Assembly: GCF_023243045.1 (NCBI RefSeq)
Contig: NZ_JALKFX010000012.1
Coordinates: 45,303 to 93,275, forward strand
Direction: 5' to 3'
Source: Frankia sp. AgB32
GTDB taxonomy: Bacteria; Actinomycetota; Actinomycetes; Frankiales; Frankiaceae
DNA: 47,973 bases
Shown here piece by piece: positions 44,144 to 47,973 of this stretch; the stretch's first letter is position 1; every line of letters begins with the position of its first letter. Both the position numbers and the translations under genes were made by a program. The notes beneath the pieces are model-generated. The model was given only the letters and a program-made list of their open reading frames with translations, was not told the DNA's origin and did no database searches.

Positions 44144-45391
44144 CTACGGCGCCGGTACCTGCTGGGGCGGCGGCGGCCCCGCGTAGCGCGCCGACGGGCG
44201 GATGATCTTGCTGTCGGCGGCCTGTTCGAGGATGTTCGCCGTCCAGCCGAGGGTGCGGGCGACCGCGAACGTGGGCGTGAACATCTCCCTGGCCAGGCCG
44301 CACAGTTCCATCACCACGCCCGCGTAGAACTCGACGTTGGTGTGCAGCTTGCGGCCGGGCTTCAGCTCGGCGAGCAGTTCCACCACCCGCCGTTCGACCT
44401 GGGTGGCGAAGGTGACCAGCTCGCCGCCGAACTCCTCCGCGACGCCGCGCAGCAGCCGGGACCGCGGGTCCTCGGTGCGGTAGACGGGGTGCCCGAATCC
44501 CATGATCCGGTCGCCGGCCAGGACGTGCTCGCGGATCCAGGGGTCGATCCGCTCGGGGCTGCCGATCGCGTCGAGGGTGTCCAGCGCCCGGCTGGGCGCC
44601 CCGCCGTGCAACGGTCCGGACAGCGCGCCGATGGCGCCGACGACACAGGCGACCAGGTCCGCGCCCGTCGAGGCGATCACCCGGGCGGTGAAGGTCGAGG
44701 CGTTGAACCCGTGGTCGACGGTGCACACCAGATAGCGCTCGATCGCCCGGACCTGGACGGGCGTCGGCTCGACGCCCGTGACCATGTGGAGGTAGTTGGC
44801 TGCGAACGGCAGGTCGTCGCGGGGCGCGATCGGCACCAACCCCTGGCCGAGCCGGTACAACGCCGCCACCAGCGTCGGGGTCACGGCCGCGGCGAACAGC
44901 GCGTCGTCGATCCGGGTCGCCTCGTCGGCGTCGTAGAGCGGGCCGACGCCGCGGGCCGATCCGGCCAGTGACAGCGCGGTGCGCAGCCCGTCGAGCGTGC
45001 CCGCGCCCGCGCGGCGACCCTCGCGGGCGAGCCCTGGAAGCAGCTCGGCGACGCCGTCGGGGATGCGGCGCAGCGGCGCGACCCGGGCCGCGAACCGTGC
45101 CCGGGCCGCCGCGTCGGGCAGCTCGCCGAACAGCAGCAGGTGCCAGACGTCCTCCAGGCTGCGCCGCTCGGCGAGCTCGACCGCGGAGTACTGGCGGTAG
45201 TGGTAGAAACCCTCCCGGCCGCGCACGTCGCCCAGGACGGTCTCCGTGACGACGACGCCCTTGAGCCCACGCGGAACATCCGACGCCGGGGTGGCGCCGC
45301 CCGCGGCCGAGACCGCGGGGCTGGCGGCGAAGGCGATGCGGGCCTGCGCCCTGTCCAGATCCTGCTGCGTCGCGCCATTCGTGATCACCAT
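44144..45391 (-). CDS. citrate synthase / 2-methylcitrate synthase
   Basis: 415 residues; ATG 45391 has GAGGAGG. The catalytic segments are present: VDHGFNASTFTARV, GPLHGGA and GFGHPVYRTEDPR with the active-site His residues, and NVEFYAGVVMEL, where Glu sits at the position of the usual Asp of NVDFY. I believe Glu is typical of this actinobacterial subgroup but did not check. It joins acetyl-CoA (or propionyl-CoA) to oxaloacetate. It is divergent from the HTH-fused homologue, sharing a palindromic operator. Confidence 0.9.
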   Translation of the reverse strand: MVITNGATQQDLDRAQARIAFAASPAVSAAGGATPASDVPRGLKGVVVTETVLGDVRGREGFYHYRQYSAVELAERRSLEDVWHLLLFGELPDAAARARFAARVAPLRRIPDGVAELLPGLAREGRRAGAGTLDGLRTALSLAGSARGVGPLYDADEATRIDDALFAAAVTPTLVAALYRLGQGLVPIAPRDDLPFAANYLHMVTGVEPTPVQVRAIERYLVCTVDHGFNASTFTARVIASTGADLVACVVGAIGALSGPLHGGAPSRALDTLDAIGSPERIDPWIREHVLAGDRIMGFGHPVYRTEDPRSRLLRGVAEEFGGELVTFATQVERRVVELLAELKPGRKLHTNVEFYAGVVMELCGLAREMFTPTFAVARTLGWTANILEQAADSKIIRPSARYAGPPPPQQVPAP

Positions 45392-45439
45392 GGTGTGCCT
45401 CCTCGGGATCCATGGTTGATCCATCATCCCGGAAGGTCA

Positions 45440-45459
45440 ACGTTGATTACAATCAACGT
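45440..45459. promoter_or_regulatory. palindromic operator between the two citrate synthase genes
   Basis: Perfect 8-base arms acgttgat (45440-45447) and atcaacgt (45452-45459) around taca. It is strikingly AT-rich for this contig and sits midway between the divergent starts (49 bases from the minus ATG, 43 from the plus ATG). Confidence 0.7.
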
Positions 45460-45472
45460 GAATCAGTACACT
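45443..45472 (+). promoter_or_regulatory. candidate promoter of the HTH-citrate synthase gene
   Basis: TTGATT (45443-45448) and TACACT (45467-45472) with an 18-base spacer. The -35 element lies inside the palindrome, so binding there would control initiation. The leader would be about 22 bases. Similarity to the consensus is moderate. Confidence 0.45.
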
Positions 45473-45501
45473 TGACGGCACGCGGTGGTGGGAGGGTGTG
45501 A

Positions 45502-46797
45502 ATGGTCGACGGCACGTGGCTGACCTCGCGGGAGGTCGCCGAACGGCTCGGGGTCAAGGTCGAGACGGTGTACGCCTACGCCAGCCGTGGCCTGCTGCAC
45601 AGCCGCCGCGGCCCCGGTGGTCGGGGGAGCACGTTCGACCCCGCCGAGGTCGCGCGGCTGCGCCAGGTCGGCCGCGCGCGGCCGGACCGCGCCGACCCTC
45701 CCGAGGGCCCTGCCGGGACGGAGGTTCGATCGGCCGGCGTTCGCGGCGCGGGCCTGCCCGTCATCCGCACGAGGCTGACCGCCATCGCGGACGGCCGGCT
45801 CCACTACCGCGGGCGCGACGCCGTCGAGCTCGTCGCCGGTCACTCGTTCGAGCAGGTCGCCGGGTGGCTGTGGCTGGGCCGGCTGGATGCGCCGGCGCCG
45901 TTCGCCGTGCCGGAGCAGCTCGCCACCACCCTGCGGCACACCGGTCTGGCGCTGCCCGCCCGCGCCCGGCTCACCGACCGGCTCCGGGTCGCCGTCTCGG
46001 TGGCCGCCGCCGATGATCCGCTGCGCTTCGACCTGCAGCCCGACAGCGTCATTCTCACCGCTCGCACCCTCGTCGCCGCCCTCGTCGAGGCGATTCCCGC
46101 CAGCCCGGTCGGCGGGTCCGGCGGGTCCGGCGGACCGGCGGCGGGCATTGCCGGGCGGCTGTGGGAACGGCTCACCGCGACGCCGGCGGAACCGGCCGCG
46201 CTCGCCTGTCTGGATCACGCCCTCGGCCTGTTGGCCGATCATGACCTGGCGGTGTCCACCTTCGCGGCGCGGGTTGCGGCCTCCGCCCGCGCGGACCCGT
46301 ATGCGGTTGTCTCCGCGGGGCTGGCCGCGCTCGACGGTCCGCTGCACGGCGGCGCCAGCCGACTCGCGGCTCGCCTCGTCTCCGAGGTGAGCGGCGGCGG
46401 TGACGCCATCGGGGTGGTCTCCGAGCGGCTGCGATCCGGGCAGCCGTTGCCCGGCTTCGGCCATGCGGCCTATCCGGACGGCGACCCTCGTGCCCAGGCG
46501 CTGCTGCGCGAACTCGCCGAGATCCCGACCGCGGCCCCGTTTCTCGCGACGGCCGAGGAGATCACTCGGGCGTCCGGGCGGGATCGGCCGCAGCGACCGA
46601 ACGTCGATCTGGCGCTTGCCGTCCTCACTCTGGCCGCTGGTATGCCCGCCGAGGCCGGGGAAGTGATCTTCGCGGTCGCCCGGACGGTCGGCTGGCTCGC
46701 CCACGCGCTGGAGGAGTACGGCGAGCGCCCGCTGCGGCTGCGCCCCCGGGGTGTCTACGTCGGCCCCCCGCCAGCCAGGGAGATCGCGGGCGGCTGA
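45502..46797 (+). CDS. citrate synthase with N-terminal helix-turn-helix
   Basis: 431 residues; GGGAGGG lies before ATG 45502. Residues 1-55 form an excisionase/MerR-type HTH (WLTSREVAERLGVKVETVYA, then ASRGLLHSRRGPGG). The rest is a citrate synthase: LDHALGLLADHDLAVSTFAARV, GPLHGGASRLAARLV, GFGHAAYPDGDPRA, PNVDLALAV and AVARTVGWLAHALEEY keep the His/His/Asp active-site positions. It could be an enzyme, a DNA-binding regulator, or both; the operator next to it makes autoregulation plausible. Related two-gene divergent arrangements occur in other actinomycetes (recollection). Confidence 0.9.
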   Translation: MVDGTWLTSREVAERLGVKVETVYAYASRGLLHSRRGPGGRGSTFDPAEVARLRQVGRARPDRADPPEGPAGTEVRSAGVRGAGLPVIRTRLTAIADGRLHYRGRDAVELVAGHSFEQVAGWLWLGRLDAPAPFAVPEQLATTLRHTGLALPARARLTDRLRVAVSVAAADDPLRFDLQPDSVILTARTLVAALVEAIPASPVGGSGGSGGPAAGIAGRLWERLTATPAEPAALACLDHALGLLADHDLAVSTFAARVAASARADPYAVVSAGLAALDGPLHGGASRLAARLVSEVSGGGDAIGVVSERLRSGQPLPGFGHAAYPDGDPRAQALLRELAEIPTAAPFLATAEEITRASGRDRPQRPNVDLALAVLTLAAGMPAEAGEVIFAVARTVGWLAHALEEYGERPLRLRPRGVYVGPPPAREIAGG

Positions 46798-47817: not shown

Positions 47818-47973
47818 CGGAAGATCCTCCCGCGACGCGGCCGCCCGACGAGGTGACGCCGCACGACCTGGCGCAGGCGTGGCACCCGAGTGACCACGAG
47901 CTGGCCCGGCGCCCGCGGGGGGGGGGGGGCCCGCGGGGGGGGGGGGGGGTGGGGGGGGGCCCCCCCCCCGGGG
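47814..47973 (+). CDS. N-terminus of an ABC transporter permease, cut by the contig end
   Basis: It starts at GTG 47814, overlapping the binding-protein stop in a GTGA arrangement, and stays open to the edge. The first ~33 residues (VTEDPPATRPPDEVTPHDLA and on) look like the cytoplasmic lead of an amino-acid ABC permease. From 47911 the sequence becomes G/C homopolymer and is unreliable. Confidence 0.5.
   Translation, partial: MTEDPPATRPPDEVTPHDLAQAWHPSDHELARRPRGGGGPRGGGGVGGGPPPG
47911..47973. other. poly-G/poly-C contig end, probable artefact
   Basis: The last 63 bases are almost only runs of G and C. A similar poly-C run lies at 17-30 at the other end. Mirror-like homopolymers at both ends are best explained by low-quality end reads rather than biology. 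Confidence 0.75.

Follow-up and report, generated by a model that had tools for sequence, protein, structure and literature searches.

Frankia sp. AgB32 carries, between two divergent citrate synthase genes, an AT-rich palindrome that probably forms the core of an operator conserved across Actinomycetes upstream of one of the two, a gene coding for a helix-turn-helix (HTH)-citrate synthase fusion. The site, its conservation, its near-uniqueness, and its link to the fusion and to partner genes that have been moved or replaced are computed results. Based on these sequences, we consider it likely that the operator is read by the HTH of the adjacent fusion, which would act as a trigger enzyme, most likely repressing its partner first and itself second, at a level set by a ligand.

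The divergent citrate synthases and the palindrome between them

The first-pass annotation of this DNA had reported divergent citrate synthases, one of them HTH-fused, in what we term the window, i.e., the whole analyzed stretch of 47,973 nucleotides. Domain searches bear this out, with a Citrate_synt protein encoded on the minus strand (44144..45391) and a protein combining MerR_1 and Citrate_synt on the plus strand (45502..46797, stop included; 431 aa). Both match PF00285 above its cut-off of 27 bits (fusion 219.5 bits, partner 359.8 bits), and the AgB32 genome has four citrate synthase matches. The N-terminal domain of the fusion (residues 8-58; 45523..45675, plus strand) is an HTH of the MerR type (MerR_1, 32.9 bits, cut-off 21.6) that falls far below the cut-off of the BldC family model (NCBIfam HTH_BldC, 28.2 bits versus 77), and its closest solved chains are SoxR (E 0.009) and MerR (E 0.07). 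It is followed by a linker, whose length differs among fusions, and the citrate synthase domain (residues 84-416; 45751..46749, plus strand). The best NCBIfam model for the partner is PRK12350, just below its cut-off; its ORF is open to the first ATG at 45427, and the likely start is instead 45391, with GAGGAGG six bases upstream.

The active-site residues of the fusion's enzymatic domain are His247, His282, His321, Arg330, Asp369, Arg394, and Arg414. We take His282, His321, and Asp369 to be the catalytic His, His, and Asp, and Arg330 to be the oxaloacetate-binding Arg, all of which are present in the fusion; with these active-site residues and a DNA-binding domain in one chain, it has the makeup of a trigger enzyme. 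Counted over distinct aligned sequences, which are not independent genes, His247, His282, Arg330, and Asp369 are each found in 131 of 131 fusions and His321 in 125 of 131, the HTH residues Thr22, Tyr24, Tyr26, Ser28, Arg29, and Gly30 are invariant in 128 of 128, and in the partner a Glu substitutes for the catalytic Asp in 115 of 115. A Glu also aligns at this position in the solved citrate synthase 2c6x.

The palindrome, ACGTTGATT-AC-AATCAACGT (45440..45459, no strand), is a perfect inverted repeat of 9+2+9 bases, of which the 8+8 form described earlier is the same repeat with shorter arms counted. Its AT-richness was likewise correctly recognized: G or C makes up 7 of its 20 bases, against 74% for the window, and by inspection it is the sole entry below 40% G+C among the 51 inverted repeats of the window (arms of at least 8 bases, spacers of at most 6, nested ones counted). 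It also lies, as had been claimed, near the middle of the intergenic region, which is 110 bases long because the partner start is taken as 45391 rather than 45427. Arms of nine bases by themselves are not beyond chance in 48 kb, and the palindrome taken alone is therefore little proof; what is beyond chance is its uniqueness in the 6.68-Mb genome, where it has one place within three mismatches, and its conservation. A role as terminator was ruled out, with no terminator-like site in 45340-45560. As a separate observation, the end of the window (47915-47973) contains long G and C runs suggestive of an assembly artefact.

As conserved in the class, the operator spans 45437..45456 (no strand) and comprises half-sites A (TCAA, 45437-45440), B (TTGA, 45443-45446), and C (TCAA, 45453-45456). 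A consensus scan found no sigma-70-type promoter at the divergon, and both promoters are hence predicted from conservation. That of the fusion (45443..45472, plus strand) would consist of TTGATT (45443-45448), 18 bases, and TACACT (45467-45472), a pair that recurs with an identical spacer in 8 distinct contexts among the loci (24 before deduplication). That of the partner (45412..45440, minus strand) would consist of TTGACC (45440-45435), 17 bases, and AACCAT (45417-45412), and its counterpart at other loci is TTGACA, 17-19 bases, and GACAGT, with spacings of 18, 17, and 19 in 66, 5, and 1 of 72 distinct contexts (spacings of 14-22 searched). Half-site A forms part of the partner's predicted -35 and half-site B, in Frankia, the fusion's own, so that the claimed overlap of the palindrome with the -35 of the fusion promoter holds as a reading of the sequence. 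The further claim, that the fusion regulates itself and its paralog, stands in part: the site covers both predicted -35s in Frankia, but its main target looks like the partner promoter, because in Streptomyces its distance to the partner's promoter-like boxes is nearly fixed, whereas that to the fusion varies (35 to 133 bases to the matched HTH). On account of this same variation, the site is not simply the -35 of the fusion.

Conservation and specificity of the proposed operator

In 35 genomes sampled from the order, searches for the fusion gave a strong match (E <1e-60) in 15 and a weaker one in G032. Allowing up to two mismatches, the site is found at the divergon of 14 of these 15; in the fifteenth (G006), a contig end truncates the locus. 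Nowhere else in the 35 genomes does a sequence reach this level. The fusion-like gene of G032 has a site with three mismatches; three-mismatch matches elsewhere in the order were treated as chance. Seven copies are perfect, and among these all 18 arm bases are invariant whereas the central two differ, which is the pattern expected of a protein site. The footprinting check that the first-pass annotation had set was thus run, and the site clearly survived it.

Across the class Actinomycetes, the fusion is found in 53 of 296 sampled genomes (identity at least 43%, partial ones counted), and a further set comprised 80 named fusion loci, mostly from Streptomyces. The general form of the site is A (TCAA), two bases, B (TTGA), and then C (TCAA). 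In 130 distinct upstream stretches, for which identical ones were merged but which are not independent because related species remain, the full A-B-C form (TCAAnnTTGAy, 4-10 bases, TCAA) is present in 108 and the B-C form in 122, with mean matches of 0.0 and 0.38, respectively, in 50 shuffles. The 22 stretches without the full form include 12 from genus g42, which keeps B and C and has half-site A replaced by a TAGATA-type sequence, the variants L123, L125, and L168, and two stretches cut by the start estimate (L171 and L169, the latter also with TAAA as its A half); L170 and L172 gave no N-terminus. No recognizable site was found upstream of five fusion loci (L065, L069, L099, L129, and L134). 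None of these has a partner citrate synthase in the locus DNA examined, which again points to the partner as the main target, and the HTH residues are retained in four of the five (those compared). L082 and L090 have no partner in the locus DNA examined, yet the site is present, indicating that partner loss is not always site loss. We also observed that at L142, L209, and L210 the citrate synthase beside the fusion is a remnant or in pieces and the site is still intact.

The span from B through C measures 13, 14, 15, and 16 bases in 87, 30, 3, and 3 of 123 distinct cores (one of the three 16-base cores is L099, counted elsewhere as site-less), with L123 and L149 as outliers in B-C spacing. A fixed 14-base spacing was ruled out by the Streptomyces core of 13 bases. 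Such variability is unusual for a rigid dimer site and counts against the fusion as reader of this operator; the variable length of the linker in the fusion may permit it. At L123 (3904-3947), TGTCAATATTGATT is followed a few bases on by another copy in inverted orientation, which ends in ATTGACA; the operator appears to be doubled here.

In a survey of 61 Streptomyces genomes, the fusion was found in 36, and 33 of these have the site within 250 bases upstream of it (Fisher p 4e-14 for the association, with relatedness ignored). None of the 25 fusion-less genomes contains the strict form (TCAAyrTTGAy, 3-6 bases, TCAA), and five of them have a looser match; in the fusion-bearing ones, the strict form is found at 2 further places. 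The exceptions are G051, with no site at the fusion, G333, with A and B kept and C decayed, and G334, with A decayed at the fusion and an intact site at a moved citrate synthase. The relaxed class-wide pattern by itself is not specific: it matched 66 of the 296 genomes, 34 among the 53 with the fusion and 32 without, and 18 of these 32 belong to a single family of small genomes (f25), several of which were matched by a reversed control pattern as well. The relaxed pattern gave 23 matches away from fusion genes in the 61 Streptomyces genomes, two of them strict, and the reversed control matched 6 of the 61.

The site occurs about once per genome, and a wide regulon was ruled out for this reason. 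A B-C core, TTGATTGAATCAA, also stands just before a gene in three Streptomyces genomes, G051 (L222:1797-1809), G139 (L223:1804-1816), and G306 (L226:1465-1477). The gene in L222 codes for a CoA-transferase III, and the following gene has a similar start in the three genomes; in G051 and G139, the fusion is present without its local site and without an adjacent partner. The place before the CoA-transferase III gene is possibly a second target.

It could be argued that no protein specifically reads the palindrome, an AT-rich element that would be related to a promoter or present by chance, given that half-sites A and B coincide with -35 hexamers (TTGACA and TTGATT) and that arms of this length are not rare in 48 kb. 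We consider this highly improbable: the conservation takes in half-site C and the dyad symmetry, i.e., more than two -35 boxes, and that of the operator exceeds that of the inferred -10 block.

The candidate reader and its proposed action

The partner was found in 46 genomes, 45 of which encode the fusion as well, the remaining one (G049) being a fragment at a contig start; hence, co-occurrence alone cannot tell the fusion from a third-party regulator. It was dropped as proof of the reader, being confounded by the partner, and the argument is carried by moved partners and a partner swap. With respect to the former, G225 has a citrate synthase gene 20 kb from the fusion, with its own site of identical core and diverged spacer, and its fusion retains its own site beside a 30-residue citrate synthase remnant. 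A citrate synthase gene off the divergent position in S. aurantiacus (L125, G334) has its own site, as does a citrate synthase fragment in S. curacoi (L102). In these three rearranged cases the site follows the citrate synthase gene, which fits a diffusible reader.

With respect to the latter, at four loci from four families (L156, L157, L158, and L217) the divergent partner is an HMGL/homocitrate-synthase-like enzyme, for which the best NCBIfam model in L157 and L158, the two on which the library was run, is the NifV homocitrate synthase, below cut-off. The fusion and an operator of the same type remain at all four, the contig of L217 ending inside the fusion. The four fusions form one clade (support 95/92 in a tree that G157 entered with its C-terminal piece L170), and the swap hence looks like one event. 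The fusion is a more constant companion of the site than the partner, and that the two stay together despite partner move or swap favors the fusion as reader, with the swap being the best evidence on reader identity. Thus, the claim that the HTH of the fusion reads the site gains from the conservation and from the moved and swapped partners, and the identity of the reader is the part that we infer.

Alternatively, a separate regulator, such as MtrA, GlnR, CRP, or another factor, might read the site, the HTH of the fusion having another target or none. The five fusion loci that keep the fusion without the site are compatible with this. Further, in the part of the source available, MtrA of S. 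coelicolor reportedly binds a probe derived from the DNA between sco5831 and sco5832, with TTGACTTAACTGTCCA as the predicted site (PMC12323332), and a review, in its accessible portion, has GlnR, DasR, and CRP regulating the citrate synthase genes of Saccharopolyspora erythraea (PMC10704036). However, TTGACTTAACTGTCCA, whose exact string is in none of the loci compared, fits a block beside the operator, TTGAyTnnACTGTCCA, located at the partner's inferred -10. This MtrA-type block differs in sequence from the operator, and in each of the 41 distinct stretches with both it is separated from half-site A by 17 or 18 bases (18 in 38 stretches and 17 in 3, with distances of 6-45 searched). Global regulators typically act on numerous targets, unlike a site found about once per genome, and the fusion is the sole DNA-binding protein of the two-gene divergon and stays with the site after the partner swap. 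A separate regulator is accordingly, in our estimate, rather unlikely.

In the mechanism we favor, the fusion, in which a linker of variable length connects a MerR/BldC-type DNA-binding domain to a citrate synthase domain, would bind TGTCAAyrTTGAT-Nx-rTCAA and so cover the partner's -35 and, in Frankia, that of its own promoter. Repression is our guess as to the sign of regulation, being the likelier one because a protein on the site would hide the partner's -35. Oxaloacetate, acetyl-CoA, or citrate in the enzymatic domain would set the expression level. Metabolite sensing is equally a guess: the sole pointer to the sensing of substrates is the conservation of the active-site residues, and since almost all of these are kept, the fusion probably binds its substrates.

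The fusion might also bind the site as an activator, or as a constitutive regulator with no response to metabolites. MerR-type HTH proteins are often activators, and the present evidence is compatible with either sign of regulation. However, at MerR-activated promoters the operator lies between the -35 and the -10, with a spacer of 19-20 bases, whereas here the site covers the -35 boxes and the spacers are 17-19, mostly 18; constitutive action, in turn, sits poorly with the conserved active-site residues, which suggest that substrate binding is kept. We therefore regard this possibility as unlikely, albeit one to be taken seriously. Returning to the fusion as a ligand-responsive regulator, a more specific version, which we put forward only tentatively, is that a catalytically active citrate synthase might sense its substrates via its own active site and, through the flexibly linked HTH, set the transcription of a second citrate-forming or homocitrate-synthase-like enzyme. 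If this version were true, several families of Actinomycetes would have a one-protein flux sensor at the entry to the citric acid cycle, with an exchangeable partner and a kept operator.

Implications and comparison with known systems

Citrate synthase controls entry into the citric acid cycle, and these bacteria have several copies of it. Should the fusion be the reader of the operator, members of this class would employ a central metabolic enzyme itself as a transcription factor. Comparing loci in which a homocitrate-synthase-like enzyme has taken the partner's place, with the operator retained, offers a way to test how the circuit works.

No description of an HTH-citrate synthase regulator or of this operator was found in the open-licence PubMed Central literature. 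Trigger enzymes with a DNA-binding domain include PutA, BirA, NadR, and MocR/GabR, which, like the fusion, combine an enzyme and a DNA-binding domain in a protein whose gene lies near its likely target; to our knowledge, no member of this group has a citrate synthase as its enzyme part. The sco5831 (citA3) and sco5832 (citA4) genes of S. coelicolor are likewise neighboring putative citrate synthase genes with a common intergenic region, and we infer both their orthology to the divergon and which of the two is the fusion; the paper describing them concerns MtrA, and its available part does not mention a palindrome, an HTH fusion, or autoregulation (PMC12323332). In S. lividans, the SCO5831 protein is more abundant under phosphate proficiency, according to the accessible part of the report (PMC9739823). 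CitA of Caulobacter crescentus is also a citrate synthase with a regulatory role, one that is independent of catalysis; it acts on the cell cycle via CtrA and (p)ppGpp, and the portion of the source at hand describes no DNA-binding domain in it, the term helix-turn-helix being absent from the text (PMC7083601). The organization of the fusion is further reminiscent of BzdR, which, as far as the available text of its description goes, likewise has an N-terminal DNA-binding domain, a linker, and an enzyme-derived sensor domain; however, the shikimate kinase-like domain of BzdR has lost its activity, whereas the active-site residues of the fusion are almost all kept (PMC3602430).
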